Positions 349 to 16,355 of a stretch of 64,000 bases of DNA are shown here, piece after piece; the first letter of the stretch is position 1, and every line of letters begins with the position of its first letter. The notes beneath the pieces were generated by a model, which was not told where the DNA came from, ran no database searches, and saw only the letters and a program-made list of their open reading frames with translations. The position numbers and the translations under genes are program-made. The DNA comes from Dongshaea marina (GTDB lineage: Bacteria; Pseudomonadota; Gammaproteobacteria; Enterobacterales; Aeromonadaceae): assembly GCF_003072645.1 (NCBI RefSeq), contig NZ_CP028897.1, positions 1,005,658 to 1,069,657 on the forward strand. The letters run 5' to 3'.

Positions 349-403
349 GCGCAGTTATTGCATTATTCTTTGTACTCTTACTTTTTAAGGATGAAGAAGA
401 TCT

Positions 404-1717
404 ATGGCTCAAATTTCAGCACCATCTCGTGTCGATACTCGATTATTTTCTCCTGAAGCCTCGATTAATGGAACAAAATATGGTTTACCCTCGGAGGTTT
501 ACTATTGTAAAAAATGTGTAATTAGTAATCAGCGCCCAAACTCGGCTGTAGAGTTTAAGCATACGAATAAAAGCAAAAAGAAAACAATTCACTTTGATAG
601 CGAGGGGGTTTGTGATGCGTGCCGATTATCGGAGCAGAAAAATAATACAATAGATTGGGAGCTCAGAGATAAGGCGTTGAGAGAGTTATGTGATCGGCAT
701 AGGAGCAAAAATGGATACTATGATTGTTTGGTTCCGGGATCTGGCGGTAAGGATAGTTTTTACGCGGCTCATATTTTAAAAGAAAAGTATGGAATGCACC
801 CATTAACCGTGACTTGGGCACCACATATATACACAGAGTGGGGGTGGAAGAATTTTCAGTCATGGATTCATGCAGGGCTTGATAACTACCTTATGACTCC
901 AAATGGGCGGGTACACAGATTATTAACCCGGTTGGCCGTTGAAAATTTATTGCATCCATTTCAACCATTTATGTTAGGGCAAAAGTTATTAGCCCCCAAA
1001 ATGGCTAAGAAGTTCAATATCCCATTGATCTTTTATGGTGAAAATGAGGCGGAGTATGGAAACCCTATTGCAGATACCAACTCACCACTGCGTAGTAGCG
1101 AATACTTTTCATCGTCTGACTATGATGAGCTTTATCTTGGAGGAGTATCATTGACAGAGCTTCAGGAGGACTTTGGATTAGTTTCCCAGGATCTTATTCC
1201 ATACCTTCCTATATCTGAGGGTGATATTGAAGAGTGTAATATTGAAACACATTATCTAGGATATTATCTGAAATGGCACCCTCAGAGTTGCTATTACTAT
1301 GCAGTAGAAAATGGCGGATTTGTTGCTTCTCCAGAAAGGACGCCTGGAACTTATTCTAAGTATAATAGTATTGATGATCGAATTGATGACCTTCATTATT
1401 ATACAACCGGTGTTAAATTTGGTCTGGGTCGTGCGAGTTATGATGCAGCTCAAGAGATTCGTTCCTTAGATATTGAGAGAGATGAAGGTGTTGCTTTGGT
1501 TCGTCGATATGATCACGAATTCCCTGAGCGTTTTATTGATGAGCTGTTATCCTATTTAAGTATTCCTGAGAATGAGTTTCCTGTTGCAGCAACACAATTT
1601 GAATCACCAGTTATGGATAGACACTATTTTGATCGTCTTTGCGATAGCTTTAGGAGTCCTCACTTATGGATTTATGATAAGGGGCTGTGGCGATTACGCC
1701 ACCCTTTGGAGGAGTGA
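404..1717 (+). CDS. N-acetyl sugar amidotransferase (WbpG/PseA family)
   Basis: This 437-residue protein has the features of the N-acetyl sugar amidotransferase family: a Cys pair at residues 35 and 38, a second pair at 70 and 73 (V-C-D-A-C) suggesting a zinc site, and a PP-loop ATP-binding motif S-G-G-K-D-S at about 113-118. Family members (WbpG of Pseudomonas, PseA of Campylobacter) turn an N-acetyl group into an acetamidino group, using ammonia delivered by HisH/HisF-like partners. Those partners follow directly; the next start codon overlaps this stop (TGATG). The base composition is more AT-rich than the flagellar genes, which suggests acquisition. The exact sugar substrate is not known; a nonulosonic acid is favoured by context. 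Confidence 0.88.
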   Translation: MAQISAPSRVDTRLFSPEASINGTKYGLPSEVYYCKKCVISNQRPNSAVEFKHTNKSKKKTIHFDSEGVCDACRLSEQKNNTIDWELRDKALRELCDRHRSKNGYYDCLVPGSGGKDSFYAAHILKEKYGMHPLTVTWAPHIYTEWGWKNFQSWIHAGLDNYLMTPNGRVHRLLTRLAVENLLHPFQPFMLGQKLLAPKMAKKFNIPLIFYGENEAEYGNPIADTNSPLRSSEYFSSSDYDELYLGGVSLTELQEDFGLVSQDLIPYLPISEGDIEECNIETHYLGYYLKWHPQSCYYYAVENGGFVASPERTPGTYSKYNSIDDRIDDLHYYTTGVKFGLGRASYDAAQEIRSLDIERDEGVALVRRYDHEFPERFIDELLSYLSIPENEFPVAATQFESPVMDRHYFDRLCDSFRSPHLWIYDKGLWRLRHPLEE

Positions 1718-2475
1718 TGCCAAAGAAGCGACTAATTGCGCGACTTGATATAAAAAATAACTACCTTATCAAGGGGATTCACCTTGAAGGGCTTAGGAAA
1801 CTAGGCACTCCAGATACCTTTGCTGGAGAGTACTTTTCACAGGGTGTTGATGAGCTGATATTTATGGATGCGGTAGCATCTCTCTACCAGCGCAATAATC
1901 TGATGCATATTGTTAGTCAGGCTGCCGAGAATATATTTGTACCAATTACAGTGGGTGGGGGATTAAGAAAATTAGATGATGTTAAGGCTGTCCTGCGAAG
2001 TGGTGCTGACAAAGTTGCTATCAATACTGCTGCGGTGGCTAAACCAAAATTTTTGAGTGAAGTAGCAAGAGAGTGTGGGGTTCAATGTGTAGTTTTGTCT
2101 GTGGAAGCAAAAAGTGTAGGGGATCAGCTATGGGAGGTTTATACCGATAATGGCCGAGAGAGAACAGGGGTAATGGTTGATGATTGGGTAAAGCAGTGTT
2201 TACCCTTGGGGGTTGGTGAGATTCTACTTACATCAGTGGATCGTGAAGGGACATGTTGTGGACTAGACATAGAGTTATGTCGCATGGTGAGATCTCTATC
2301 TACTGTACCAGTTGTTGCTTCGGGAGGTGTGGGTTGTTTGAGTCATATTCAACAAGGTTTTGATGTTGATATGGATGGTATAGCGCTTGCGCACCTCCTT
2401 CATTATCGGAAATCGACAGTTAGCGAAATAAGGGACTACTGTCTTGATGCAAACCTGGATGTAAGAGCAAGATGA
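1717..2475 (+). CDS. HisF-like cyclase/synthase subunit for sugar amidation
   Basis: A (beta-alpha)8-barrel protein of 252 residues clearly related to HisF, with the N-terminal R-L-D motif (Asp11, a catalytic position in HisF) and phosphate-binding G-G-G and A-S-G-G-V motifs. I start it at the ATG at 1717 because it overlaps the amidotransferase stop; an in-frame ATG 30 bases upstream lies inside that gene. At the place where histidine-pathway HisF has Asp130 (I-D-A-K) this protein reads V-E-A-K, an Asp-to-Glu change. With the adjoining HisH and amidotransferase it most likely passes ammonia to a sugar rather than making histidine; no other his genes are here. Confidence 0.88.
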   Translation: MPKKRLIARLDIKNNYLIKGIHLEGLRKLGTPDTFAGEYFSQGVDELIFMDAVASLYQRNNLMHIVSQAAENIFVPITVGGGLRKLDDVKAVLRSGADKVAINTAAVAKPKFLSEVARECGVQCVVLSVEAKSVGDQLWEVYTDNGRERTGVMVDDWVKQCLPLGVGEILLTSVDREGTCCGLDIELCRMVRSLSTVPVVASGGVGCLSHIQQGFDVDMDGIALAHLLHYRKSTVSEIRDYCLDANLDVRAR

Positions 2476-3092
2476 AAAAAATAGATTTGATAGATTTTGG
2501 CACAGGAAACCTCTTCTCAATTATCGGGGCATTGCGCTATTTGGGGGCGGAGCTTAATGTTGTGAGCCGAAAGGGAGATTTTAGTGGTGCCGGGCTTATA
2601 GTTTTACCTGGAGTTGGTGCTTATCCCGCTGCAATGAAAACTCTAAAGAGTAATGATATACAACGTGAACTACAGTATAAGGTTAGTTGTGGTATACCTA
2701 TTCTTGGGATCTGTCTGGGCATGCAGCTTCTGTTTGAGAAGAGCTATGAATTTGAAGCTTGTAAAGGATTAGGGTTGCTCTCTGGTGAAGTTACCCCTTT
2801 GCCTAGTTTGTCAATTGATGGGTTGAGTCTCCGTATACCCCATGTTGGTTGGAGCCAGGTTACTTTTGAAGGTAATGGTAGTAGTCCACTGGTAGGGGGG
2901 CTTATGCAGGAAGATTATTACTTTGTACATTCACTTTCGGCAATAACTCAGGATAGTCTTGGGTTTGTTGAGTTTGGAGGGCACAAAATTACAGCCTATG
3001 CTGAAAAGAAAAATATATTTGGTTGTCAATTTCATCCCGAGAAGAGTGGTGATGCTGGCTTGCATATGTTGGAGTCCTTTATTAATTTATAA
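2472..3092 (+). CDS. HisH-like glutamine amidotransferase subunit
   Basis: Class I glutamine amidotransferase of 206 residues, the normal HisH length. The nucleophile is Cys81 in G-I-C-L-G-M-Q, and the His188/Glu190 pair of the catalytic triad is in Q-F-H-P-E-K near the C-terminus. It releases ammonia from glutamine and feeds it through the partner HisF barrel; the two genes overlap by four bases (ATGA), which fits a 1:1 complex. Together with the upstream amidotransferase this forms the three-gene acetamidino module known from WbpG-HisH2-HisF2 of Pseudomonas O-antigen loci. It is the last plus-strand gene before a convergent minus-strand block. Confidence 0.88.
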   Translation: MKKIDLIDFGTGNLFSIIGALRYLGAELNVVSRKGDFSGAGLIVLPGVGAYPAAMKTLKSNDIQRELQYKVSCGIPILGICLGMQLLFEKSYEFEACKGLGLLSGEVTPLPSLSIDGLSLRIPHVGWSQVTFEGNGSSPLVGGLMQEDYYFVHSLSAITQDSLGFVEFGGHKITAYAEKKNIFGCQFHPEKSGDAGLHMLESFINL

Positions 3093-3159
3093 AATACATT
3101 ATGGGGTAATTCATCAGGGTTTATAATTTTAACTATATCAGTATGTATTAATTGTTACC

Positions 3160-4293
3160 TCATATAAATAAAGGTATTATTTTCTCTTGTGGGATCTTCT
3201 TTTCATTAACTAGAAAATTATTTATCTCTGAGTAAAATGACATTGATGATATAATAAACAAGTCAGCAGTTAAATATCTTTCATCATTAATCGATACGAT
3301 TTTCTTATTAAATGAAGGTAAATATGTGTTTGTTTTTGAATTATCAATATCAGCTATAATGATATTTTCATCAGTATGAACGTCTAGTATATAAAGTAAC
3401 GTGTTTAGTCCATTGCATGCACCATGGAAAGCTATTTTTTTATTGTTCGTCCTTTCAGTGTTCAATATATTTTTTATCCTTAATATATTACTTTCAATTT
3501 TTGATGATATGATATCTATCAATCCATCATCCTCAGCTATAATGTTTTCTTTAGGTTGTGATGTTGCTTCAATTAAGATATTTAATGTGTCATTGGCGTA
3601 GAATTCATTAATTATATTAAAGCCACAAAACTGGATTATTTCATATGCGCTTTTTCTTGTGAAATAGCTTATGTGTTCATGTAAAAGAGCATTCAAATCT
3701 CCCGTTTTAAACTGCCTTTCAATATCTGGGATTTCAACAACCGCCCTACCTCTTTTAGGTAATAAAACCTTATTTAGTTCTGCTAGAAACAAAGTTGGAT
3801 CTGGAACATGCTCTAATACGCTGAAGCAGATTGCAAAATCAAATTTTTTATTTTGCAAAATATTAAAATTAAAGTACCCCTTAATGACATCTATTTTTTC
3901 ATCGCTGGATTCTTCTTTTATTGCCGGGTCAACTAATGTATATTTTTTTATGTCAAATTTACCAAGTATTTTTTTTGCCGTGTAAAGGCTTCCCCCTCCA
4001 ATTTCAAGGATTTCTTTATGGTCTAAACTACCGTGTAAATATGAGATTAAATTGATCTTTTGATCACCAAGTTTATTTGCCCACTCTGAATATCCTGGAG
4101 GGTTAGTTATAAACTCATAGTCATCATTATCGTATGTTTCAAATATTGAATCTTGATTTTCTGAACTAATAATCTGTTGTATATAACCATTATTGTTCCA
4201 ATGAATTTCAAATGGTATTAACGCCTCAATGCCTGGCTTTTCAGATGTACCTTTCCATAAGGGCATACTTCTTATTTTTAGTTTTTTATTCAT
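3160..4293 (-). CDS. SAM-dependent methyltransferase, two-domain
   Basis: A 377-residue protein with a class I methyltransferase core: motif I around residues 96-103 (L-E-I-G-G-G) and the post-motif V-L-E-H-V-P-D-P typical of Methyltransf_11/13 enzymes. The C-terminal ~120 residues contain a second alpha/beta region (K-I-A-F-H-G-A-C-N-G, then I-I-A-D-I-D-N) resembling the C-terminal domain of sugar C-methyltransferases. It overlaps the upstream synthase gene by four bases and is the promoter-distal gene of the AT-rich minus-strand block. A role in O-, N- or C-methylation of a nonulosonic acid or nucleotide sugar is inferred; the acceptor is not known. Confidence 0.75.
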   Translation of the reverse strand: MNKKLKIRSMPLWKGTSEKPGIEALIPFEIHWNNNGYIQQIISSENQDSIFETYDNDDYEFITNPPGYSEWANKLGDQKINLISYLHGSLDHKEILEIGGGSLYTAKKILGKFDIKKYTLVDPAIKEESSDEKIDVIKGYFNFNILQNKKFDFAICFSVLEHVPDPTLFLAELNKVLLPKRGRAVVEIPDIERQFKTGDLNALLHEHISYFTRKSAYEIIQFCGFNIINEFYANDTLNILIEATSQPKENIIAEDDGLIDIISSKIESNILRIKNILNTERTNNKKIAFHGACNGLNTLLYILDVHTDENIIIADIDNSKTNTYLPSFNKKIVSINDERYLTADLFIISSMSFYSEINNFLVNEKKIPQEKIIPLFI

Positions 4294-5369
4294 ATCAAAT
4301 CATCCATGTCGTAGTTAGTTTTTGCTCTTTTCCCTAAATACTCCCAATAGGAGTATGGGGATATTCCTGAGCCAGGCCTTTTTATTGTTAAATTATCCTT
4401 TGTAAATAGTTCTCCTTTTTTAATCGCCTTAGAGGCGATTAGGCTTTTTCGTGCCACATCACTATTAACTAATTCATCATCGACAGGTGCCTTTATTCCT
4501 TTACCCATAGCTTGTTCAATATTTCTTATTTTATTAATCATAGATTTTAATTCGTCAGGCTCTAGGGATGCGCTATGGTCTGGACCTTTTAGTGTACGGG
4601 TTAATGTAAAGTGCTTTTCAATTATAGATGCGCCAAGAGCTACAGCTGCTAATGAGATCTCGATACCTAAAGTATGGTCTGAATAGCCAGTTTTTAGCCC
4701 GAATGCAACTTTTAGGGTATTTAGCGTGTTAAGGTTTGCCGAACTAAATGGTGTTGGATAAGCTGTTGTACAATGCAAAAGTGTCACATTATTTTTTAGT
4801 GCTCTCTGACCTGCTTCAGAACAATAACACTGTCTAAAGTTTTCTAATGATGGAGATAAATTATGGGATGTGTACCCTAAGGCTAATACACCTAATGCAC
4901 TTTCAATATCTGCAAGAGTACACATTCCTGTTGATAGTATGACAGGGGTATTTCGAGAGGATATGTCAAGCAGTAATGGTGCATTTGTTATTTCCCCGGA
5001 TGCTATTTTAATTATTGGTAGCTTTAATTCATCTATGAGTAATACTATGCTCTCTTCATCAAATGGTGATGATAAAAAATCAATATTATTAATTTTGCAG
5101 TATTGAAATAATTCAATGTGTTCTTCTTTAGTCAGCTCGAAACTCTTTATCATTTCAAGCTGAGACTCATCACTAGGGGTGTTTCTTTTTTGATACTCAG
5201 CTTTAGGTGATTTACTGCTCACAACATTTTCAGACTTAAAAGTTTGAAACTTCACAGCATCTGCATTGGCATCTACAGCAATATCAATTAGTTTTTTAGC
5301 TAATTCAATAGAACCATTATGGTTAACTCCCGCTTCAGCAATAATATATGTCCTATTTTTGTGTTGCAT
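4290..5369 (-). CDS. NeuB-family nonulosonic acid synthase (sialic/legionaminic type)
   Basis: A 359-residue member of the N-acetylneuraminate synthase family. The barrel carries A-E-A-G-V-N-H-N-G near the N-terminus and the conserved E-K-H-F-T-L ... K-G-P-D-H stretch at about 245-260; the last ~70 residues form a SAF (antifreeze-like) domain. These enzymes condense phosphoenolpyruvate with a six-carbon sugar to give a nine-carbon acid. It is clearly distinct from the PseI encoded at 9018-10064, and sits in AT-rich DNA with an epimerase, ATP-grasp and phosphoesterase. Whether its product is legionaminic acid, sialic acid or another isomer cannot be decided; no precursor genes for a second acid are visible in the window. 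Confidence 0.88.
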   Translation of the reverse strand: MQHKNRTYIIAEAGVNHNGSIELAKKLIDIAVDANADAVKFQTFKSENVVSSKSPKAEYQKRNTPSDESQLEMIKSFELTKEEHIELFQYCKINNIDFLSSPFDEESIVLLIDELKLPIIKIASGEITNAPLLLDISSRNTPVILSTGMCTLADIESALGVLALGYTSHNLSPSLENFRQCYCSEAGQRALKNNVTLLHCTTAYPTPFSSANLNTLNTLKVAFGLKTGYSDHTLGIEISLAAVALGASIIEKHFTLTRTLKGPDHSASLEPDELKSMINKIRNIEQAMGKGIKAPVDDELVNSDVARKSLIASKAIKKGELFTKDNLTIKRPGSGISPYSYWEYLGKRAKTNYDMDDLI

Positions 5370-5398
5370 TAATCACACTCCAGAATAATCATTTAAAG

Positions 5399-6295
5399 TT
5401 AGTACTTGTTTATCACTTTACCTGAGTGCATTGCATCTATGCCATCTTTTAAATTTATGCTAGCTGAATAGTTAAATTTTTCATGAGCTTTTGTGCAATC
5501 TAGGTCAAATCTTATGCTTGGCGTGTCACTATCACCATCAAGTATATTTATATTTCCCCTGTTTGTTATCTCTATACATGTTTTTGCTATTTTTAGTATT
5601 GAAATGTTTTCCGGTCCTGCAATGTTAAATATCCCCCATGCTTTATTCTCTAAGGCGTGTAAGGCTGCGTTACATACATCTGCTGCATTAATTAAATTGA
5701 CGGACGATTCAATAGGCTGATAGATATCTATCTGTTTATTTTGTTCTGATAAATATAGTAGCTTTGCGACTAGTTTTTTTTTGTCCATAAATGTCCCATA
5801 AATTGAGGATGGACGTAAAACTATAGTTTTTAATCCAAGATAACTATAGTGTTCAAATATACTCTCAGCCAATAGCTTACTAAAACCATAGAATCCTCCA
5901 AAACCTGAAATAACTTTCTCACTATTTTCTTTTATTTTCTTAGCATAAGGATCTTTATAAACGGTAGATCCAGATAAAAAGACTACTGGGATATTTCTTG
6001 ATAGAGCCCACTCACAAATTGCCAGGCATGATCTAACATTTGTATCAAATGTTTCCTTTATGATAGAATTATTTTCATATTTATGGTCAGATCTATTTAT
6101 CGAATGTTTTGTATATGCACCAAAATGAAATATTGATGATACACCCTTGAGTAAGTGATCAAGCTGATGGATGCTTTGCCAATCTCTTAAATCCCATTGT
6201 TTTCGGGTTATCTCAATAAAAGGTATCGACCTTTCTTTGAGAATGGATTTCATATTAAGCCCTACCAAGCCAGAGCTTCCGGTTAGAGCTATCAT
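5399..6295 (-). CDS. NAD-dependent epimerase/dehydratase family protein
   Basis: Extended SDR of 298 residues. The N-terminus has the Rossmann motif T-G-S-S-G-L-V-G (residues 5-12), a Ser-Gly-Ser-T-V-Y region near residue 110, and the Tyr/Lys pair in G-F-Y-G-F-S-K. Such proteins epimerise, dehydrate or reduce nucleotide sugars. The gene overlaps the upstream ATP-grasp gene by four bases and lies 29 bases before the NeuB-family synthase, so all three are probably co-transcribed and act on one sugar. The base composition is very AT-rich, like the rest of this block. Confidence 0.82.
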   Translation of the reverse strand: MIALTGSSGLVGLNMKSILKERSIPFIEITRKQWDLRDWQSIHQLDHLLKGVSSIFHFGAYTKHSINRSDHKYENNSIIKETFDTNVRSCLAICEWALSRNIPVVFLSGSTVYKDPYAKKIKENSEKVISGFGGFYGFSKLLAESIFEHYSYLGLKTIVLRPSSIYGTFMDKKKLVAKLLYLSEQNKQIDIYQPIESSVNLINAADVCNAALHALENKAWGIFNIAGPENISILKIAKTCIEITNRGNINILDGDSDTPSIRFDLDCTKAHEKFNYSASINLKDGIDAMHSGKVINKY

Positions 6296-7314
6296 ATAGA
6301 TATTACCTTATGATGAGGGTTATTTAGTTTAATGTGATGGCTTCTTGAAAGTTTCTCAATTTGTTTTTTTGGAACAAGAAGCTCACTCCAATATCTCATG
6401 ATGACAAAATCATAATTTACCTCTGGTTTATACTCAATATCATTGATTTTTTTTAGATAATACTCGACAGGATTAAAACCTAAGGCAGTCCAAAATGGTG
6501 TAGTACCAGAGTGGCGGCAGTTAATTTCAAATATTTTTGGGATTCCACTAGAATCAATTCGGAGTTGAAAGTTGCAACAACCGTGAACGTTTAGTTTTAA
6601 AGCAACTTCAGTAATGTATTCGCAGATTTTTTTATTTTTTATGGGGGTAGCTTTGTACGTATCACCATCTCGTAATTCTCGCTTGAAAACTAGAACATCA
6701 GAAACATGATTGCCTACGATAATAATTGTGCATGTGTACTCATCAGAGCCTTCGCCTATCAATTCTTGGATGATGAGTCCATCTTCATTTTCAATTCTAT
6801 CTCTAAGTTCTTTTTCGTTTTTTGAAATGCTGACACCTTTTGAGCGGCACCCAATAGCGGGCTTCACAATTATAGGATAGTTTATTTCTTTATAATCTAT
6901 ATCTTCAGGTCTATATGTAGCGGGGTGCGAGAAATTGTTCTTTTTAAGAAACTCAAAAGTCTTGTATTTATCGGAGGATATTTCAATCGCCCTCTCTGGC
7001 GATATTATAACCTTTGCAGAGCTCATCGATTCTATTTTACTTTTATTTCTGGCACAGAAATAAAGCTCTATATCAGTTCCTGGGAAATAGTAACTTACAT
7101 TTTCATTGTTTAATAGCTCAATAAGTTTTTCTAGATGGTTAGGAGATGTTTCAGGTGGAAGAATTTTGGCGTAATCACTAACATATAGACCGGCAGAGTA
7201 TGCGCTAATATCAGAGGTTACAATTCTAATATCTAAATCTGTGATTGACTTTAGCGATTTAATTATGCCTTGACCAACACCGCCACCAACTCCTGTTACT
7301 AGAACTGTAAGCAT
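6292..7314 (-). CDS. ATP-grasp domain protein (carboxylate-amine ligase-like)
   Basis: A 340-residue protein with an N-terminal Rossmann-like pre-ATP-grasp domain (V-L-V-T-G-V-G-G-G-V-G) followed by an ATP-grasp fold: the Lys in Y-P-I-I-V-K-P, the G-S-D-E-Y stretch, and the metal-binding E-I-N-C-R-H near residue 265. It resembles the carbamoyl-phosphate-synthase-large-subunit-like proteins seen in polysaccharide clusters. Family members join a carboxylate to an amine or other nucleophile with ATP. In this setting it could add an amino acid or acyl group to a sugar or its carboxylate; that is inference. It overlaps the epimerase gene and is three bases from the phosphoesterase gene. Confidence 0.8.
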   Translation of the reverse strand: MLTVLVTGVGGGVGQGIIKSLKSITDLDIRIVTSDISAYSAGLYVSDYAKILPPETSPNHLEKLIELLNNENVSYYFPGTDIELYFCARNKSKIESMSSAKVIISPERAIEISSDKYKTFEFLKKNNFSHPATYRPEDIDYKEINYPIIVKPAIGCRSKGVSISKNEKELRDRIENEDGLIIQELIGEGSDEYTCTIIIVGNHVSDVLVFKRELRDGDTYKATPIKNKKICEYITEVALKLNVHGCCNFQLRIDSSGIPKIFEINCRHSGTTPFWTALGFNPVEYYLKKINDIEYKPEVNYDFVIMRYWSELLVPKKQIEKLSRSHHIKLNNPHHKVISI

Positions 7315-7316
7315 AT

Positions 7317-8126
7317 TTATTCCTTAAAAAATGAAAGTAGCTTCTGAATCGTTTCTTTAGGTAGTTGTGATGCATTTATTTTTCTAAAATAATCATTAAG
7401 ATCTGTTTTTGCTTCAATGTGTTCAATAGTTATATCTATAGACCCTAATGTCAATATTAAAAAACTTAGTCCGGTGCCTCTTGACTGTCCTAGAGACCCG
7501 GGGTTTACAATGAGACACTTTTCTTTTTTATCATTTATTTTGAATTTTTTTGTGTTCTCTTTAATAGAGTTATGGTTTATAACACATGTACTCAATGCTC
7601 TATGTGTGTGCCCAAAAATCCCTACCATATAATGCCTATTAGATAGCTCTTTTGCTGCTGATAATAGATCGTCTCGTGAGTTTATATATGACCAATCATT
7701 ATCTGAATAGGGATTTGCATGAGAAAATAAAATAGGACCTATAGATAATGATTCAATCCAGTTGAAATATGAATATAGATTAACATCTATATTGTTTAGG
7801 TTCCACATTATTGAGTCACGAATATATCCGCTGATATTTTCTAGCGATTTTCCATTCTGTAGGTCAAAGTATATTTGGTCGTGATTTCCTTTGATGAAAA
7901 AACACTTTGTTTCTTGAGGTATATTTTTTAATGAATATATTACCTCTTTACATTGGCAGCCATAGCTTAATACATCACCTAAAATAACAATATATTTTAT
8001 TGAGTTTTTTTTAATGTAGTTTATGGCAAACTCAAGGGAGTCACTATTACTATGTATGTCGGACAATACTGCAATTTTTCTGCCTAGTACCTCACTATAG
8101 TCTATGTTGATGGCATTCTCTCTCAT
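7317..8126 (-). CDS. Metallophosphoesterase (calcineurin-like, YfcE type)
   Basis: A 269-residue phosphoesterase with all the metal-binding motifs in order: D-I-H (in L-S-D-I-H-S-N), G-D (in I-L-G-D-V), G-N-H-D, and G-H-T-H, followed by N-P-G-S-L-G. Active enzymes of this fold hydrolyse phosphomonoesters or diesters with two metal ions. NeuB-type synthases of the sialic acid pathway may use 6-phosphosugars or leave 9-phosphates, so a sugar-phosphate phosphatase would fit this operon, but the substrate is not shown by the sequence. It appears to be the first full gene of the AT-rich minus-strand unit. Confidence 0.85.
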   Translation of the reverse strand: MRENAINIDYSEVLGRKIAVLSDIHSNSDSLEFAINYIKKNSIKYIVILGDVLSYGCQCKEVIYSLKNIPQETKCFFIKGNHDQIYFDLQNGKSLENISGYIRDSIMWNLNNIDVNLYSYFNWIESLSIGPILFSHANPYSDNDWSYINSRDDLLSAAKELSNRHYMVGIFGHTHRALSTCVINHNSIKENTKKFKINDKKEKCLIVNPGSLGQSRGTGLSFLILTLGSIDITIEHIEAKTDLNDYFRKINASQLPKETIQKLLSFFKE

Positions 8127-8138
8127 TGTGTCTTATCT

Positions 8139-8246
8139 CTATGAACTATAGTGTTTTTTGTGAATATTGGCACGTTTCTGCAAAATTATTTTTTCATCTT
8201 TAATGCTACCGCATGGACATTTTATCCACCAATTAAGTTTATTCAT
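8139..8246 (-). other. Possible small gene or gene remnant, 35 residues with C-P-C motif
   Basis: An ATG at 8246 opens a 36-codon frame ending 12 bases before the phosphoesterase start. The peptide contains I-K-C-P-C-G-S-I-K-D-E-K and a basic tail (K-R-A-N-I-H-K-K-H). The same frame stays open upstream, without an ATG, almost to the end of the PIG-L gene (about 8342). It reads like genuine protein sequence rather than random frame, and could be the C-terminal piece of a lost gene or a small zinc-binding peptide. I do not recognise a family. Confidence 0.3.
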
Positions 8247-8340
8247 ATCATAATGGGTGTGAGAATGCAACCGTCCTAACCGTGACTCTTTATACCTTAT
8301 TTTTTTGATTATTCTATAAATGACATATTTGGAATATGAG

Positions 8341-9021
8341 CTATCTTATACACCTTTCAATATAAAATGATTCTGCCATTTGGAGACCATACATAGCACC
8401 TCTTGTAGTAGCTAAGGACTTGATTGTCTCATAGCTACGACTATGTGGAAAAGAACGTATCTCTTCATCATACTGCTTTAGTGCTCTGAGTTTACTCTCC
8501 CAATAGTTACTGATATCCACGATATAGTTTGGAGTAAAAGTTGGGTAGCTCTTGGATTGCCACTCAGTGCTGGAGAGTACCTCGAAGGTCAACAGCTTTT
8601 TGACGGGGCTTCCGGGCTGGGGACGGCATGCTGTTAAGACTGCCTGATTGACGATACGGTGATCAATATTCAGATCCTGAGCGTAGTGAGTATAGACAAC
8701 CGAGGGCTGAATTTTATTCAGCTCTTTCTCGATAGTCTGGGTGACCTCAAGCAAAGGCAGGGTATCGAGTTGGTTATCGGGGAAATTAAACCGATGCACA
8801 CTCTCCTCATCAATACCAAGCTCAGCTAGAGCCCTGACGGATGCATCTTGACGCTGCTGGAGCTGTGCCGCTTGTTGCTGGCTTTCTCGGGCGCTTACTC
8901 CATCTGTCATGATGATAATGCTAACCTCATCGCCTTCGGCAATATGCCGGGCGATGGTGCCACCACAGCCAAGCACCTCATCATCCGGGTGCGCCACAAT
9001 TACCGCCACTGTTTCTGTCAT
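8341..9021 (-). CDS. PIG-L family deacetylase
   Basis: A 226-residue protein with the zinc-binding A-H-P-D-D-E motif at residues 10-15 and the later His of Y-T-H-Y-A-Q-D-L-N-I-D-H, both diagnostic of PIG-L/LmbE-type N-deacetylases, which strip acetyl groups from amino sugars. I chose the ATG at 9021 because it overlaps the pseI stop (ATGA); a start 15 bases upstream is possible. It is the last gene of the pseudaminic acid operon. Removing an N-acetyl group so that another acyl group can be added, for instance by the neighbouring formyltransferase homologues, is a reasonable but unproven role. Confidence 0.85.
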   Translation of the reverse strand: MTETVAVIVAHPDDEVLGCGGTIARHIAEGDEVSIIIMTDGVSARESQQQAAQLQQRQDASVRALAELGIDEESVHRFNFPDNQLDTLPLLEVTQTIEKELNKIQPSVVYTHYAQDLNIDHRIVNQAVLTACRPQPGSPVKKLLTFEVLSSTEWQSKSYPTFTPNYIVDISNYWESKLRALKQYDEEIRSFPHSRSYETIKSLATTRGAMYGLQMAESFYIERCIR

Positions 9022-10064
9022 TTGATTAGCTCCCATGAAACCGCTGTTCCAATACTGATATCCTGGTTCACCTCTTTGCCGATCAGCTCCTGGTAATGTT
9101 TGGGGGTAAGTCCGTAGCCCGGACGAATTCGCCGAATACTGGAAGCAGTTATCTTGTCTCCAGCTTTGAGATCTTCCACAAAGTAGAGGGAGCGGCGAAA
9201 TTTGATGCTTGCCTCTTCGACTGGCTTTTGTTCATAGCTGGCTGTCCCAATTGCTTGCCAGACCACTTGTGTATCCAGGGAGAGCTGCTTTAGCTCTGAA
9301 GGCTCTAAAGAAAAGGCAGAATCTGGCCCCTTGTCCTCTCTGCTCAGGGTTACATGCTTTTCGATAACGCATGCGCCTAAGGCAACGGCGGCAACCGGTA
9401 CTGAGGTACCAAGAGTGTGATCGGATAATCCAACCAGGCAATCGAAGTCTTGCTCCATTTTGGGGATTGTCGCGAGGTTTGCTTGTTCAACGGGGGAGGG
9501 ATAACCACTGATACAGTGCAGCAGTACAAGCTCAGAGCAGCCATTTTCTCTGGCTGTTTTGACCGTTTCTTCAATCTCTTGCTGATTAGCCATTCCGGTG
9601 GAGATGATCATCGGTTTACCGGTTTGAGCGACTCGTTTGATGAGGGGGAGATCTGTCATCTCGAAGGAGGCAATCTTATAAGCGGGTGTATCCAGCTCTT
9701 CCAGCAAATCGACAGCTGTTTCATCAAAAGGAGTAGAGAACAGGGTAACTCCGACCTCTTTCGCTTTTTGAAACAGGGTCTCATGCCACTCAAAAGGGGT
9801 GTGGGCCCAATCATAGAGGTCGTAGAGCTTATAGCCATCCCATAGGCCGCCATGGATCAGAAAGTCCTGCTTATCACAGTCAATGGTCATGGTATCGGCG
9901 GTGTAGCTCTGGATCTTAATGGCATCGGCTCCGGATTGGGCCATTATCTCAATACTCTCAAGGGCCCTTTGCAATGAACCATTATGGTTCGCAGATAGTT
10001 CAGCAATGATGTATGGCTTCTCTTTTTTTCCAATGGCCCGATTATTGATCAAGATAGGTTTCAT
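9018..10064 (-). CDS. pseI: Pseudaminic acid synthase
   Basis: A 348-residue NeuB-family synthase. The N-terminal A-E-L-S-A-N-H-N-G and the E-K-H-V-T-L ... K-G-P-D-S-A-F-S-L stretch match the pseudaminic branch, where D-S-A-F replaces D-H-A/S of the sialic and legionaminic enzymes. The last ~60 residues form the SAF domain (R-P-G-Y-G-L-T-P). It condenses phosphoenolpyruvate with 2,4-diacylamino-2,4,6-trideoxy-L-altrose to give pseudaminic acid. Four-base overlaps on both sides (deacetylase and formyltransferase genes) put it firmly inside the pse operon. Confidence 0.93.
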   Translation of the reverse strand: MKPILINNRAIGKKEKPYIIAELSANHNGSLQRALESIEIMAQSGADAIKIQSYTADTMTIDCDKQDFLIHGGLWDGYKLYDLYDWAHTPFEWHETLFQKAKEVGVTLFSTPFDETAVDLLEELDTPAYKIASFEMTDLPLIKRVAQTGKPMIISTGMANQQEIEETVKTARENGCSELVLLHCISGYPSPVEQANLATIPKMEQDFDCLVGLSDHTLGTSVPVAAVALGACVIEKHVTLSREDKGPDSAFSLEPSELKQLSLDTQVVWQAIGTASYEQKPVEEASIKFRRSLYFVEDLKAGDKITASSIRRIRPGYGLTPKHYQELIGKEVNQDISIGTAVSWELIK

Positions 10065-10771
10065 GACTTATTCGGCCTTTTGGTGATGAATACAGAAGCG
10101 AATAACTGATCGGGGTCATCCTGGTTAGCATCCGTAAACTCCATTCTATAATCTCCCCAATCGATATAAGCCTTTGGGTAGCTCTGTGCATCCAACATAC
10201 GAATATGATCATAGAGAGCTTTGAGATCAGCTGTCTTTGGTAACTCACTCTGCTCTGGTGTACGGCGTTTGAATAGCGTGACCTCTCCTTCCTGAGGCTT
10301 AGGCTGAGGCGTCTGCTCAACTATGTAGCAAATAAGCTGATAGATCTTGGGAGCCATCCTCTCAAAAATCTCCTGGGCAGATCCTTCCAGAGAGAGTGGA
10401 AGCTTCCGGTACACAGGACCTGCGTCCAACTCTTTTACCATCTGCAGAGCGCTGAGCCGGGTCTCCTTGTGCCCTCTTGCTATGAGGTTTTGTAGTGGGC
10501 TACCACCTCTGCCATAAGGGACGTCGGCCATGTGAAAGCAAACACACTCCCAATGTTTAAGGATATCTTCGGGGACGATCCAGCTCCAGTGAGGGAAAAA
10601 GATATACCTGGGGTCGAGGCTGTTTAGGTAATCGGTTGTCAGTTGATTTTTTTCTGTGATCAAGTGCCACTGACCCGGGAGCTCAGGTGTGAATTGTGTG
10701 AAAGCCTCAATATTCCACGGCTTGAGTGTGGCCACCAGGTAATTTTGTGTGTTTGGATCAGTCTGGATCAT
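10061..10771 (-). CDS. Formyltransferase-like protein A of the pse operon
   Basis: A 236-residue protein related to the N-terminal domain of methionyl-tRNA and sugar formyltransferases. It shows the C-F-H-M-A-D-V-P-Y-G-R-G-G motif near residue 95 and D-A-G-P-V near 130. Of the Asn-His-Asp triad of the family, the His and Asp are present; the Asn position two before the His reads Cys. A ~60-residue C-terminal extension follows. It is wedged between pseI (four-base overlap) and a second, divergent homologue (14-base overlap), where other clusters often carry the acetyltransferase gene pseH. It may add an N-formyl group to the sugar; a non-catalytic partner role for one of the pair is also possible. 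Confidence 0.72.
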   Translation of the reverse strand: MIQTDPNTQNYLVATLKPWNIEAFTQFTPELPGQWHLITEKNQLTTDYLNSLDPRYIFFPHWSWIVPEDILKHWECVCFHMADVPYGRGGSPLQNLIARGHKETRLSALQMVKELDAGPVYRKLPLSLEGSAQEIFERMAPKIYQLICYIVEQTPQPKPQEGEVTLFKRRTPEQSELPKTADLKALYDHIRMLDAQSYPKAYIDWGDYRMEFTDANQDDPDQLFASVFITKRPNKS

Positions 10772-11411
10772 ATTCAGTGATCTCGATTTTGTATTGTTTC
10801 CCGCGGAGTTTAAAAAAAGCCGGGTAGCGTTGATTGTCGACGATCCTCAGGAGCTCGAATTGCTCGCTCAGACTCTTGTCCGGGTTTAGTTCGCTATCTC
10901 CGGGATTCCTTCTTGGGTAGCTATGGCTGGCCCCTGACTGCTCTTTAGGTATGAGGGTTGGATACTCCAATAGAAACCTTTGGCAGATCCGAATTGTCGC
11001 TTCTCCCTGCAGCTGCCGCCATTCATCACAAAGCTCTGTTCCTCTGAGTTCAATCTTGTCTTTGAGCCAGATCCTGCCACTATCGGCCTGCTGGGTTGCC
11101 TCAATCAGGCAGACCGGGATCTCATTTTTTCCTTCCAGTATCTGCCAGGCTATGGGAGCAAAACCTTTTCCATGGGGAAGGTCACTTTCATGGGCCACAA
11201 GATTGAGTCTGGCTTTGGCAAGATTTTCTGGCGTTACCATATGCACGCAGCCGAGGAGAAAGGTGATATCGGATTGAGCAAGCTCAGATTGCTCACTAAT
11301 CAACTTTGCGTCATAACCATGTTTATGGCACCAGTCGATGAGCTCCCGGGCAAAGGGAAGAATCCAGGACTCATTGTCGACGAGAACACAAATTGAGTCG
11401 ATTTTATCCAT
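10758..11411 (-). CDS. Formyltransferase-like protein B of the pse operon
   Basis: A 217-residue formyltransferase-fold protein, only distantly similar to its neighbour. The motif N-L-V-A-H-E-S-D-L-P-H-G-K-G near residue 78 keeps the family His, and A-D-S-G-R-I near 115 keeps the Asp; the Asn of the triad is not in its usual place two residues before the His, though an Asn lies four before it. The C-terminal ~50 residues (Y-P-R-R-N-P-G-D-S-E-L) parallel the R-R-T-P-E-Q-S-E-L tract of protein A, so the two share architecture and may be old duplicates. It overlaps pseG by eight bases. The likely role is N-formylation of a 4-amino sugar using 10-formyltetrahydrofolate; unproven. Confidence 0.7.
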   Translation of the reverse strand: MDKIDSICVLVDNESWILPFARELIDWCHKHGYDAKLISEQSELAQSDITFLLGCVHMVTPENLAKARLNLVAHESDLPHGKGFAPIAWQILEGKNEIPVCLIEATQQADSGRIWLKDKIELRGTELCDEWRQLQGEATIRICQRFLLEYPTLIPKEQSGASHSYPRRNPGDSELNPDKSLSEQFELLRIVDNQRYPAFFKLRGKQYKIEITEYDPD

Positions 11412-12489
11412 TGCCTAATATCTCCACGACCCTGCTTGTGCCCACTCCATCGCAGCTATCTAATCCCAGTTTGACTGACTCTAGATAAAATCTGGGGTCT
11501 GTAATTTTTGCAATTTGAGCTGTTAATGAATCTGGATTGAGAGGGCTCTTAAGTTCAACCGCTATCTTCCGGGATACCAGTTTTTCTGCGATGAGTTTTT
11601 GGTTCTCAGCAAATACAGTAATTAGGCTCACAAGCCCCATACTACAGCGCTCCCAGCAACTACTTCCTGCGGCACCAATACAAATATCATGGGAGTGGAT
11701 CAATTGAGCGATCTGATTACAGTTAATTTTGAGCTCAATTTGTTGATGCTGTTTATAAAGTTGCTGAATTCTAGGAATATTTAGAGCTGAGCTACCGAGA
11801 ACTACAGTCACTTTTGTGAACTCTTCCAAGTTGAGTGAAGCAAGGATCTGGGATGTGATATCGCAAGGATCGGTACCTCCCATCATGATGAGAAGCCGGC
11901 TTAACCCTTGTTTGATACGGGATTGGCGATGCTGAATGATCTCTGTAGGAGAGTGTTGGTTGAATTCGGGCCTTAGTAAGGCGTACTCAGTTCCCAGCAG
12001 CATGGTACAGGGTTTCATCAGGTATGGCTGATAATCTTGGGGAATACGTCCAAGGGTTTGATCTAAAAGAAGATCACAATAGTGTTGGCGATCAGCTAGA
12101 TCATCAATGACCATGATATTTTGGGCGTGCCGGGTGAGGGCTTTTTGCCAGTGATAATCAATCCCATAGTGATCGACGATGAGCCAGTCTACCTGCTGCC
12201 CGAAAGACTCCTCTATGATATTTCGGGTTGCCTGTGCATCTTGCTTTTGAGAGCCGCCGAGCCAACGACTATGGGCCAGCAAGTGCTCAGGTTGATCTTC
12301 AGAGATAGGTATGGAGTGAACCTCTATTCCCTGTGCTTCAAGGAGGTGGCACAGGTGCCCGGGATGTTGCTTACAGATAAATAAAACCCTATGCCCTTGA
12401 TTGTTTAGCGCCTTGGCCAGGGTTAGGCTGCGCATGATATGCCCGTTTCCTATCTCTATGCCTGCATCTGCCCGCAATACAATATTCAC
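11404..12489 (-). CDS. pseG: UDP-2,4-diacetamido-2,4,6-trideoxy-beta-L-altropyranose hydrolase
   Basis: A 361-residue GT-B-fold nucleotide-sugar hydrolase related to MurG. The N-terminus has R-A-D-A-G with G-N-G-H-I-M-R (catalytic His at residue 17), and the C-terminal half has the M-G-G-T-D-P nucleotide-binding loop and G-A-A-G-S-S-C-W-E. PseG removes UDP from the 2,4-diacylamino-trideoxy-altrose before condensation by PseI. It overlaps pseF by four bases. No acetyltransferase (PseH) domain is fused to it. Family length varies; this is towards the longer form. Confidence 0.9.
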   Translation of the reverse strand: MNIVLRADAGIEIGNGHIMRSLTLAKALNNQGHRVLFICKQHPGHLCHLLEAQGIEVHSIPISEDQPEHLLAHSRWLGGSQKQDAQATRNIIEESFGQQVDWLIVDHYGIDYHWQKALTRHAQNIMVIDDLADRQHYCDLLLDQTLGRIPQDYQPYLMKPCTMLLGTEYALLRPEFNQHSPTEIIQHRQSRIKQGLSRLLIMMGGTDPCDITSQILASLNLEEFTKVTVVLGSSALNIPRIQQLYKQHQQIELKINCNQIAQLIHSHDICIGAAGSSCWERCSMGLVSLITVFAENQKLIAEKLVSRKIAVELKSPLNPDSLTAQIAKITDPRFYLESVKLGLDSCDGVGTSRVVEILGNG

Positions 12490-13175
12490 AGACTAAGCTC
12501 CATGATAGCTTTGTGCATCAGCTCGGCCCTTAACCAGTCCTCCTCGGTGTCTATATCCTGAACGATATATCGGGAAAGAATTATGGGGAGAGTGTTACTA
12601 CTAAATAAAGGACGATCTTCGATAAATGCTTCTTTATGCCCCCAGTAGATCTGGCCTGCATCATGGTAAGATTCATCGAGATCCTGGGAGCGGGTCATCC
12701 TGTGCTCTGGCTCTCGCATCTGCAAACTTCCATTCTCTTCAAGCTTTAGGGCACGTTGGATAGGAAAGGGAAAGCTGGTTACCGTAACTGCATAATCAAA
12801 ATCGGCGTTTGCCTGCAATAATTGGAGCCCTTTTCGGAGGACCTCGGGTCTTATGAACGGAGCTGTGGCATAGATACAGCAGGCAAAGTCAATATTTTCT
12901 GTTAGTTGATGAATAGTGTGGGCAACCACTGCGTTAGTTCCCGTAAAGTCATCGGCGAGTTCGTTAGGCCTGATAAAGGGGACTTCCCCTCCAAAATGAA
13001 CAGCAATCTCAGCGATCTCGGGGTCGTCGGTTGAAATAATGATTCTCTCAAAGCATTCGCAAGCCTTGGCTGCTTCAATGGAGTAGCCGATAATAGGTTT
13101 ACCATTAAAGGGACGAATATTTTTGCTAGGTATGCGTTTGCTACCAGCTCGGGCAGGAATAACCGCGATATTCAT
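12486..13175 (-). CDS. pseF: Pseudaminic acid cytidylyltransferase
   Basis: A 229-residue CMP-sugar synthetase with the N-terminal signature I-P-A-R-A-G-S-K-R-I-P-S-K-N and the later D-I-D-T-E-E-D-W near the C-terminus, both typical of PseF/NeuA enzymes. It activates pseudaminic acid with CTP to CMP-pseudaminic acid, the donor for glycosyltransferases. Four-base overlaps with pseC upstream and pseG downstream show one transcription unit. No glycosyltransferase is visible in the window, so the final acceptor is not shown. Confidence 0.92.
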   Translation of the reverse strand: MNIAVIPARAGSKRIPSKNIRPFNGKPIIGYSIEAAKACECFERIIISTDDPEIAEIAVHFGGEVPFIRPNELADDFTGTNAVVAHTIHQLTENIDFACCIYATAPFIRPEVLRKGLQLLQANADFDYAVTVTSFPFPIQRALKLEENGSLQMREPEHRMTRSQDLDESYHDAGQIYWGHKEAFIEDRPLFSSNTLPIILSRYIVQDIDTEEDWLRAELMHKAIMELSL

Positions 13176-14338
13176 TTCAGTGCTACCTTTAATGCTTGAA
13201 TGACTCTGTCCTGCTGCAGCTCGGTCATGCTATGAAACAGGGGAAGGCTAATTGCTCTGCGATAATAGTTTTCAGCCACAGGGAAATCACCTGATTTGAA
13301 GCCAAATTGCTGATAGAAGGGCTGTGTGTGTACCGGGATAAAGTGTAGGTTTACACCAATCTCCTGCACTCTAAGCTTGTTGAAAACCTCAAGATGAAAT
13401 GCCGGATCATCGTTTTTGAGCAAAATGATGTAGAGGTGCCAGCTTGAATAGCTAAGAGAGGCCTGAAAAGGCTTATCTACAGGAAGAGATCCGAGGCTTT
13501 CATTATATCGTTTGACTAAGGCATGGCGAGCCGCAACGAAGTTATCCAGCTTGGCTAGCTGCTTGAGTCCTAATGCTGCATGGATCTCAGACATCCGGTA
13601 GTTGTACCCAAGCTCAATCTGTTGATAGTACCAGGGGCCATCGGGTTGATGAGTCATCTGAACCGGATCCCGGGTGACCCCATGGCTGCGGTGCAGCTCC
13701 ATTTTTTTCCGGAGTGTCTTGCTATTGGTTAGCGCGGCGCCACCCTCTGCTGTGGTAATGATTTTGACCGGGTGAAAGCTAAATACGCAGATATCTGAGT
13801 ATTTGCAGCCACCGATAGGCTCTCCATCATATCGTGCGCCAATGGCGTGCGAGGCATCCTCAATGATTGAAAACCCATATTGCCTGGCAAGTTTTGAGAT
13901 AGCTTTCATGTCACAGGGTTGACCGGTTAGGTGGACCGCGACCAGCACTTTGGGGAGCTTTTGCTCTGCCTGAGCTTGTTTGAGTTTTTTCTCCAGAGCT
14001 AAAGGGCAGAGATTATAGGTTTTTGGATCGATATCGACGAAATCTATATTGGCTCCGCAGTAGAGTCCACAGTTTGCCGAGGCAACAAAAGTGATGGGGG
14101 AGGTCCACAACCAATCACCAGGCCCTAACTCTAGCGCCATGCAAGCGATATGCAGCGCTGAGGTCGCGCTATTTACTGCCAGGGCATGCTTGGCTCCAGT
14201 ATAGCTTTTAAGCTGCTTTTCAAATTCAGGTACCCGTGGCCCCTGGGTCAGGAAGTCAGACTTTAAGACTTTAACTACCGCATCAATCTCTTCCTGGGTG
14301 ATCTCTTGGCGGCCGTAAGGGATATGATCTTTGTTCAT
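13172..14338 (-). CDS. pseC: UDP-4-amino-4,6-dideoxy-N-acetyl-beta-L-altrosamine transaminase
   Basis: A DegT/DnrJ/EryC1-family PLP aminotransferase of 388 residues. Lys192 in F-S-F-H-P-V-K-I-I-T is the PLP Schiff-base lysine, and Asp161 in I-I-E-D-A-S-H-A holds the pyridine nitrogen. PseC transfers the glutamate amino group onto C4 of the keto sugar made by PseB. It overlaps pseB and pseF by four bases each. The length and the H-P-V-K-I-I-T-T-A-E-G-G-A signature are as expected for PseC. Confidence 0.93.
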   Translation of the reverse strand: MNKDHIPYGRQEITQEEIDAVVKVLKSDFLTQGPRVPEFEKQLKSYTGAKHALAVNSATSALHIACMALELGPGDWLWTSPITFVASANCGLYCGANIDFVDIDPKTYNLCPLALEKKLKQAQAEQKLPKVLVAVHLTGQPCDMKAISKLARQYGFSIIEDASHAIGARYDGEPIGGCKYSDICVFSFHPVKIITTAEGGAALTNSKTLRKKMELHRSHGVTRDPVQMTHQPDGPWYYQQIELGYNYRMSEIHAALGLKQLAKLDNFVAARHALVKRYNESLGSLPVDKPFQASLSYSSWHLYIILLKNDDPAFHLEVFNKLRVQEIGVNLHFIPVHTQPFYQQFGFKSGDFPVAENYYRRAISLPLFHSMTELQQDRVIQALKVALK

Positions 14339-15324: not shown

Positions 15325-15591
15325 CTGAACTCCTTTCGATGCTGTATGCTGGTGCTATTATGTGATGACTCTTGCAAGCCTGGTTTACATACCAAAGTAG
15401 TCTCCTAAATCTACAGCGGTAGTAACCGGATGCTATTTCATTGAGCTAAATGCACTTTTACGGCTTATGTCTAACCATCCTACCGCCTGCGCTGGGGAGC
15501 AACAAGGGCTGGTTTCACAGAACATGCTGAATCACTCATGACTGGTGAAATATTGATATTCGAAAACTGGCTGTTGAGGGACTGGGGCTTG
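15325..15591. other. Intergenic spacer between fliT-like gene and pseB
   Basis: No coding frame of credible composition and no strong terminator is visible. On the minus strand a GG-N10-GC spacing (T-G-G-T-T-A ... A-A-G-C-C) occurs near 15470, but its -12 half is a poor match, so I do not call it. The lack of a terminator leaves open co-transcription of the pse operon with fliS and the fliT-like gene. Confidence 0.4.
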
Positions 15592-15888: not shown

Positions 15889-15893
15889 TGAGG

Positions 15894-16313: not shown

Positions 16314-16355
16314 ACTCTGTCCCTATCGCGATTGCACGATCTTTCCAAAATAGTC

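Follow-up and report, generated by a model that had tools for sequence, protein, structure and literature searches.

To our knowledge, non-acetyl N-acyl groups on nonulosonic acids (NulOs) and bacillosamine-type sugars are known chemically, whereas the genes behind them often are not. The C-terminal domain of PglB2 from Neisseria is an ATP-grasp domain. This distinct domain has been proposed to attach a glycerol-derived group to the sugar 4-amine, where acetyl would otherwise stand, as in GATDH, a glyceramido-acetamido-trideoxyhexose (PMC6959607). Tannerella forsythia produces Pse5Am7Gra, a NulO with an acetamidino group and an N-7 glyceroyl group, and two reports describe the glyceroyl gene as not known and elusive, with the explanation at the genetic level posing a major challenge (PMC6120980, PMC6388019). 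In Shewanella oneidensis, the flagellin modification operon sfmABCDE combines an ATP-grasp protein with a NeuB, a methyltransferase, and a reductase predicted to act on 3-oxoacyl-ACP (PMC3765264).

The window analyzed here, a stretch of 64,000 nucleotides from Dongshaea marina (contig NZ_CP028897.1, positions 1,005,658 to 1,069,657), carries the following genes:

404..3092, plus strand: WbuX amidotransferase, HisF2-like and HisH2-like proteins, likely for acetamidino formation
3160..4293, minus strand: SAM-dependent methyltransferase (PF13489 and PF08484), inside the low-GC block
4290..5369, minus strand: NeuB-family synthase, most likely LegI (TIGR03569)
5399..6295, minus strand: extended SDR of the epimerase/dehydratase family, 298 aa (Pfam; Y-x3-K), third member of the cassette
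6292..7314, minus strand: ATP-grasp ligase of the PRK12767 family, 340 aa (Pfam, NF009402)
7317..8126, minus strand: calcineurin-type metallophosphoesterase, 269 aa (PF12850, PF00149)
8341..15324, minus strand: PIG-L, PseI, two formyltransferase-like proteins, PseG, PseF, PseC, and PseB

The ATP-grasp ligase and phosphoesterase genes are real, and their open reading frames lie exactly at 6292-7314 and 7317-8126, together spanning the interval 6292-8126 given in the initial annotation. That annotation placed both in a compact unit with the epimerase and the NeuB-type synthase; all four are present, closely spaced, and set in a NulO context, but it omitted the methyltransferase. The intergenic gaps from phosphoesterase through ATP-grasp, SDR, and NeuB to methyltransferase are +2, -4, +29, and -4 bp. 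GC content is 32.9% in this five-gene block (29.5 to 35.5% in single genes) versus 47.6% in the adjoining Pse genes, and 5-kb pieces of the window beyond 16.4 kb average 53.4%. The Pse genes adjoin the block, and the NulO pathway stands beside flagellar genes.

By description, the block shares NeuB, a reductase, a methyltransferase, and an ATP-grasp protein with sfmABCDE; it differs in that sfmABCDE has an ATP-grasp of the ATP-grasp_4 kind as well as a TPP enzyme, and none of its five genes is given as a phosphoesterase. PglB2, as described, resembles the role proposed below in putting a non-acetyl group on the 4-amine of a similar sugar. It is a single protein with a phosphosugar transferase, whereas the window has separate genes, a phosphoesterase and an SDR, and a NulO pathway; the 340-aa ATP-grasp stands alone and lacks the single-protein PglB2 architecture. 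When PglB2-like fusions were sought via PglC in 369 genomes of the class, the best fused candidate among the matches listed (L138) was, by eye, a glycosyltransferase-PglC fusion. The initial annotation knew of no textbook pathway with precisely this set. No paper describing the gene set was found in open-access full text, and passages on 8-epipseudaminic acid genes, Clostridium difficile flagellin, and Campylobacter jejuni flagella genes contain no matching set.

The window ATP-grasp scores 52.5 bits against Pfam ATP-grasp_3 (cut-off 23.2) and 280 bits against NCBIfam NF009402 (PRK12767.1-1; cut-off 218, applied to the window protein only); NF009402 also matches 35/35 members of an alignment of the window protein with homologs from 34 of the 55 loci described below (A2; E<=1e-20), in which the F-E-I-N active-site positions are conserved. 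The AF2 model (pLDDT 92.3) has 2pn1 and PylC as nearest folds (Z 27.8). PylC, the 3-methylornithine-lysine ligase, is an amide-forming ATP-grasp that shares the fold (4ffr: Z 27.8, rmsd 2.8 over 293) but differs by its low identity of 19 to 20%, and the window protein falls short of the PylC model TIGR03909 (37.4 bits, cut-off 248.3). We infer that the window ATP-grasp is a carboxylate-amine ligase. The phosphoesterase (Metallophos_2, 58.3 bits, cut-off 27) conserves D-x-H, GD, GNH, H, and GHxH, which we take to be its metal motifs, across an alignment of the window and 21 loci (A3), and its AF2 model (pLDDT 93.8) is nearest to PH1004, Pfu-1218608, SapH, and 3rqz. The SDR conserves Y-x3-K in an alignment of the window and 25 loci (A4); among solved proteins, those most similar to it are for the most part epimerases and dehydratases of nucleotide sugars.

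The four genes of the initial annotation can be ruled out as a self-standing NulO pathway because LegB, LegC, and LegG adjoin the window. In the left-flank locus L064 (L064:13366-16707, just left of the window), LegB scores 497 bits (cut-off 475), LegC 501 (cut-off 420), and LegG 402 (cut-off 236; the model is that of the NeuC family). They are followed by PtmE-, PtmF-, and LegF-like genes, the Ptm names after LegG being our presumed assignment; the LegF-like gene (L064:18980-19579) reaches 88.9 bits with the PseF model (cut-off 205.7). The WbuX, HisF2, and HisH2 genes of the window close the leg gene run, which begins left of the window. The window NeuB passes TIGR03569, a model named N-acetylneuraminate synthase (479 bits, cut-off 399.65), remains under the PseI cut-off (274 bits versus 340), and is 48 to 56% identical to the NeuB of 25/26 related NeuB-bearing LegC loci (35% in the remaining one, L127). 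From these sequence comparisons it is most likely the LegI step of the legionaminic acid pathway that starts outside the window.

One step of this pathway appears to be missing. LegH, PglD, and NeuD are N-acetyltransferases that use acetyl-CoA and are unrelated to the ATP-grasp cassette; the cassette would stand at their place in the pathway and, judged by the avoidance described below, would do the same job as they do, putting an acyl group on the 4-amine. A profile of our own found no LegH/NeuD in window positions 1-16400 or in the left flank, and the NeuD/PglD family has no match over cut-off in the D. marina genome (best 76.6, cut-off 160.8). The genome may still encode, at another site, a LegH that does not belong to the NeuD family. 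The comparison was then extended to 198 relatives and took in every one of the 31 further genomes that have a LegC match. A first subset of 20, drawn chiefly from the highest-ranked matches, contained NeuD in 16, and the count over all 31 gave full-length LegH/NeuD in 25. In related loci with LegC, NeuB, and LegG, LegH is present in 21/25, always directly before PtmE. In D. marina, by comparison, LegG (to 16707) and PtmE (from 16847) lie 139 bp apart, and LegI belongs to the low-GC block that also contains the cassette. The ATP-grasp is found in 0/31 of the related LegC genomes, and within the data examined only D. marina combines the cassette with the Leg pathway.

The initial annotation had named conserved co-occurrence in other genomes as a check, and it was found: phosphoesterase, ATP-grasp, and SDR occur together in 46/55 loci and incompletely in the other 9. 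The conserved unit is thus smaller than the set first proposed, since NeuB lies outside it and is present in just 2/46 triad loci (fetched flanks, at most 10 kb). The 55 loci are not independent, many being from Sinorhizobium/Ensifer and Sphingobium, and some end at contig ends, where absences are weaker. A phosphoesterase is present in 50/55 loci, 28 of calcineurin type and 22 of PHP type (the latter aligned from 13 sequences, A5), never both within 2.5 kb; in L163 a HAD-type protein lies beside ATP-grasp and PglE (weak Pfam match, 26.9 bits, cut-off 26.4). Contigs with the full cassette come from Pseudomonadota, myxobacteria, and a Chloroflexi, among others, and two cyanobacteria (L023, L026) have only phosphoesterase and ATP-grasp. 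Among relatives the ATP-grasp is rare (3/100 genomes at E<=1e-20, D. marina included; the other two are 28 to 31% identical). Plasmid matches at 1e-25 comprise 76 records, 74 of them Sinorhizobium. Assignment to a phage gene family was not supported, with no phage record at 1e-10 and no PHROG at 0.001.

The fetched flanks of 40/46 triad loci contain an aminotransferase, PglF-, or PglC-like gene, and those of 24/46 a sugar 4-aminotransferase-like gene. L062 and L063 each have an ATP-grasp-SDR fusion that directly follows an aminotransferase-like gene; a search for the L063 fusion at 1e-50 in 395 genomes of the class of L063 returned the genome of L063 only. The initial annotation allowed the ligase to act on either the sugar carboxylate or an amino group. 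Context supports the amino group, and a carboxylate amide is not favored because the sugars implied by those 24 loci are not acids.

The cassette mostly avoids the acetyltransferase. In a base-rate sample of 54 PglE-like loci, one per genome, from 54/398 genomes of the phylum and all fetched, 40 have NeuD, 3 have ATP-grasp, none has both, and 11 have neither; the chance that all 3 ATP-grasp loci fall among the 14 without NeuD is ∼0.015 (calculated by hand). ATP-grasp and NeuD coincide in 3/55 loci, of which two (L033, L045) have no phosphoesterase or SDR nearby and the third (L043) has phosphoesterase, ATP-grasp, and SDR. Outside the 55, L004 (omitted with L003 from the first alignment for a frame error) has a PglD-like gene directly alongside ATP-grasp and phosphoesterase, and NeuD is over cut-off somewhere in 3/12 cassette genomes tested, including those of L009 and L010. 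LegH and the cassette are both absent from 4/25 related Leg clusters (L122, L126, L201, L206); together with the 11/54 PglE loci, these indicate that LegH/PglD can be absent without the cassette.

Because the usual acetyltransferase appears to be missing, the D. marina cassette probably attaches a different acyl group. Judging from sequence, we consider it reasonably probable that the cassette does the work of LegH/PglD but acylates the sugar amine, which becomes N-7 of legionaminate, with a group other than acetyl. LegB and LegC would form a nucleotide-linked 2-acetamido-4-amino-2,4,6-trideoxyhexose; the ATP-grasp would activate a carboxylic acid with ATP and join it to the 4-amine, replacing acetylation from acetyl-CoA. 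The phosphoesterase would remove phosphate either from the acid before coupling (e.g., turning phosphoglycerate into glycerate) or from the product once it is coupled. Context also supports the phosphatase action on phosphorylated intermediates suggested initially. The SDR may alter the nucleotide sugar or the acid. LegG and LegI would then yield a legionaminic acid whose N-7 bears an acyl group other than acetyl. It may in addition be acetamidino-modified (WbuX/HisF2/HisH2) and methylated, and it would be destined for flagellin; the acceptor, the order of steps, and flagellin as target are what we infer. Fold searches with the ATP-grasp and phosphoesterase models pointed to no particular acid, and glyceroyl is our leading guess, a tentative one.

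A variant of this acyl replacement makes the phosphoesterase a nucleotide-sugar pyrophosphatase resembling LpxH, in place of an enzyme that dephosphorylates the acyl donor or the product. SapH, a phosphodiesterase/Ap4A hydrolase, is indeed among its nearest folds. LegG, however, already takes the nucleotide off in Leg pathways, PglC requires a UDP-sugar, and the PHP-type and, once, HAD-type partners would suggest a simple phosphoester, so that we regard the variant as unlikely. Alternatively, the low-GC block may have carried in, along with LegI, a cassette that serves a separate sugar or side group, such as an amino-acid or amide decoration on another glycan. The block looks acquired (33% GC), the scarcity of NeuB at triad loci and the four Leg clusters without LegH and cassette fit this account, and the annotated Sinorhizobium copy adjoins the sulfate-activation genes cysD-nodQ-cysQ; against it, the LegH gap coincides with the cassette here, and at other loci the cassette is mostly found apart from NeuD/PglD, which leaves the account quite unlikely. 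Least likely of all, and improbable in our judgment, is re-acylation by the ATP-grasp of an amine freed by PIG-L in the Pse pathway or on a finished NulO: PIG-L (8341-9036) immediately precedes the phosphoesterase on the same strand, PIG-L-like genes lie in the fetched flanks of 8/46 triad loci (L013, L014, L020, L024, L039, L052, L054, L058), and no match in the genome reaches the PseH cut-off (best 68.8 against 93.1), but PIG-L lies 214 bp away at 47.6% GC against 29.5 to 35.5% in the block genes, the two formyltransferase-like genes may fill the PseH gap, and the fetched flanks of 38/46 triad loci contain no PIG-L.

A broader reading can also be framed, which we hold to be possible but rather doubtful. 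The cassette would be a widespread means of exchanging the acyl group, in which the ATP-grasp couples a phosphorylated hydroxy acid (e.g., 3-phosphoglycerate), or the freed acid, to the 4-amine of an NDP-diamino-sugar, and in which phosphatases of unrelated kinds (calcineurin-, PHP-, and perhaps HAD-type) have come to carry out one and the same dephosphorylation. In the Leg pathway this would lead to an N-7 glyceroyl-type legionaminic acid and would name the kind of enzyme missing for Pse5Am7Gra, whose substituents resemble those of the product proposed here, on Pse rather than Leg. By calculation, Leg5Ac7-glyceroyl would appear as an oxonium ion at m/z of about 363, or 362 if acetamidino-modified, compared with 317 for Leg5Ac7Ac; the 361.2-Da residue of Tannerella (PMC6120980) agrees with this sum. 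A three-gene cassette that mostly avoids the acetyltransferase offers a concrete candidate enzyme for non-acetyl acylation, and its presence in a genome may serve to predict non-acetyl sugars.

The initial annotation placed a phosphoesterase and an ATP-grasp gene here, and ORF calls and family-model searches confirmed both the exact positions and the named families. The two genes open a run of five on the minus strand, from 8126 down to 3160, with intergenic gaps of +2, -4, +29, and -4 bp, in order:

7317-8126, minus strand, phosphoesterase
6292-7314, minus strand, ATP-grasp protein
5399-6295, minus strand, SDR
4290-5369, minus strand, NeuB
3160-4293, minus strand, methyltransferase

The GC content of this block (32.9%) is far below that of the flanking pseudaminic-type (Pse) genes (47.6%), its other neighbor (about 42%), and the window from 16.4 kb on (mean of 53.4% in 5-kb pieces); therefore, the five genes were probably acquired as one block. 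The surroundings, including L064, the 20 kb directly left of the window, contain the following:

L064, two flagellins and genes of hook-filament and filament-cap type (identified from the translations by eye)
L064, PseD/Maf-type protein (weak match, 57.7 bits, cut-off 670)
L064, in this order, LegB, LegC, LegG, proteins that we take to be PtmE-like and PtmF-like, and a weak LegF
Window, after the weak LegF of L064, WbuX, HisF2-like, and HisH2-like genes
Right of the block, operon of PseB, C, F, G, and I that also encodes a PIG-L deacetylase and two formyltransferase-like proteins, followed by FliS
8341-11411, minus strand, the part of the Pse operon that includes the PIG-L deacetylase and the two formyltransferase-like proteins

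With the Leg genes of L064 and the WbuX, HisF2-like, and HisH2-like genes in the window, the genome carries most of a legionaminic acid (Leg) pathway. The NeuB of the block best fits the LegI step, sharing 48 to 56% identity with the NeuB of 25 of the 26 NeuB-bearing LegC loci of relatives (35% in the remaining one, L127). Only 139 bp separate LegG from PtmE, with neither LegI nor LegH between them; LegI accompanies the cassette of phosphoesterase, ATP-grasp, and SDR genes instead. Given a PIG-L deacetylase, two formyltransferase-like genes, and no match to PseH over the cut-off in the genome, the Pse product is probably an N-formyl or deacetylated variant.

LegH, like PglD and NeuD, belongs to a family of N-acetyltransferases of the sugar 4-amine. 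In window positions 1-16400 and L064, no LegH matched a profile derived from 59 sequences of the NeuD family. A separate search of the whole genome gave no NeuD/PglD-family match over the cut-off, the best of 17 subthreshold matches scoring 76.6 of the 160.8 bits. A LegC search of 198 relatives yielded matches in 31 genomes besides this one, and all 31 loci were fetched and counted. Full-length LegH/NeuD was present in 25/31, and the ATP-grasp gene of the cassette in none. Among the 25 loci with both NeuB and LegG, 21 possess LegH, always directly before PtmE, and 4 lack it (L122, L126, L201, and L206). One related Leg cluster encodes formyltransferase-like and PIG-L-like proteins in addition to LegH (L123:11986-13541). 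Eight others (L110-L113 and L117-L120) share a 256- to 258-aa dehydrogenase-like protein after LegF, which was not seen in L064 or the window start; our guess is a part in 8-epimerization, like EpaB/AciE.

Among relatives of this genome, the ATP-grasp gene is rare, occurring in 3/100 genomes at 1e-20 and 3/398 genomes of the phylum at 1e-40, this genome included in both. Scanning a genome collection with an ATP-grasp alignment retrieved 55 loci, which are not independent, as many are from Sinorhizobium/Ensifer or Sphingobium. The eleven closest, from marine and other bacteria (e.g., Colwellia, Thiomicrorhabdus, Bacteriovorax, and Ruegeria), share 44 to 53% ATP-grasp identity in ten cases and 49% in the best segment of L018. 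Ten of the eleven have the phosphoesterase-ATP-grasp-SDR order of the window, the SDR being undetected in L018, and none has NeuB in its fetched flanks. In 46/55 loci, all three genes share a strand and fall within 2.5 kb. The compact unit with an epimerase and NeuB proposed in the initial annotation holds in the window as a tight minus-strand block, joined by the methyltransferase, but a NeuB-family gene lies in the fetched flanks of only 2/46 triad loci (L022 and L042). The fetched flanks of these 46 contain aminotransferase-like (24), PglF-/PseB-like (33), and PglC-like (17) genes, at least one of them in 40. Seven loci have the order ATP-grasp-SDR-phosphoesterase (L022, L042, L047, L053, L056, L057, and L059). 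ATP-grasp and SDR are fused in L062 and L063, both downstream of an aminotransferase-like gene, and an apparent third fusion in L060 ends at a contig edge. Phosphoesterases accompany 50/55 loci, 28 of calcineurin type and 22 of PHP type, never both; such use of unrelated phosphoesterases suggests that phosphate removal is required.

In a Sinorhizobium record (L007:7542-13895), the PHP-ATP-grasp-SDR genes are downstream of cysD-nodQ-cysQ, and therefore the sugar may also be sulfated. Beside another ATP-grasp gene, a receiver resembling response regulators (by eye) is fused to a PIG-L-like domain (L003:2453-3436).

Fifty-four PglE-like loci, one each from 54 of the 398 phylum genomes, were picked without regard to the cassette, and all were fetched. 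Full-length NeuD/PglD was found in 40, an ATP-grasp matching the profile used here in 3 (L145, L163, and L193), neither in 11, and both in none. A PHP partner is present only in L193; in L163, a HAD-type protein adjoins ATP-grasp and PglE. The variant at L145:3769-6948, between PglC and PglE, has a PLP decarboxylase and an SDR as partners, lacks a phosphoesterase of calcineurin or PHP type, and possibly uses an amino-acid-derived acyl group. NeuD occurs in 3/55 ATP-grasp loci, namely L033 and L045, whose surroundings lack both phosphoesterase and SDR, and L043, which carries the full triad; outside this set, L004 combines ATP-grasp, phosphoesterase, and a PglD-like gene. Genome-wide, NeuD over the cut-off was absent from 9 of 12 tested cassette genomes and present in those of L009, L010, and L063. 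NeuD was found in 1/24 loci with triad and aminotransferase versus 16/20 LegC loci (the first 20; Fisher test with kinship ignored, p = 1.7e-7). With moderate confidence, we place the ATP-grasp cassette in the position of LegH/PglD, and this reading is the same, at unchanged odds, with 20 or 31 Leg loci compared.

AlphaFold models of the ATP-grasp protein (pLDDT 92.3) and the phosphoesterase (pLDDT 93.8) were confident. The former most resembles 2pn1 and PylC, both at Z 27.8 (rmsd of 2.6 over 280 and 2.8 over 293, respectively), with biotin carboxylases and PurK close behind (Z 24-26). PylC is an amide-forming ligase. The phosphoesterase is nearest to PH1004, Pfu-1218608, SapH, and 3rqz (Z 24-26). 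Among proteins of known structure, the SDR matches chiefly nucleotide-sugar epimerases and dehydratases best, and the PHP-type partner PolX and YcdX. Likeness of fold does not establish function.

In the mechanism that we infer, LegB/LegC (elsewhere PglF/PglE) would supply an NDP-4-amino sugar, and the ATP-grasp protein would join a carboxylic acid to its amine as an amide. The phosphoesterase would take phosphate off the acid (phosphoglycerate to glycerate) or off the product after coupling, and the SDR would work on the sugar or the acid. Glyceroyl is a tentative, rather doubtful candidate for the acyl group, favored because it is a known acetyl substitute on such sugars. A distinct C-terminal PglB2 domain is proposed to add glyceroyl in place of acetyl in Neisseria GATDH (PMC6959607), Tannerella has the glyceroyl-bearing Pse5Am7Gra (PMC6120980, PMC6388019), and C. 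jejuni flagellin carries di-O-methylglyceric acid derivatives of Pse (PMC3068675), for which m/z 391 versus 317 is, by our arithmetic, consistent with one acetyl replaced. The methyltransferase and acetamidino genes of the locus would fit such a product.

No paper describing this gene set was found in open-access full text; among known systems, PglB2, LegH/PglD, and the sfm operon of Shewanella (PMC3765264) come closest. The novelty lies in the likely substitution of an ATP-grasp cassette for LegH/PglD, another way of filling a known pathway step, rather than in a new nonulosonic acid pathway.
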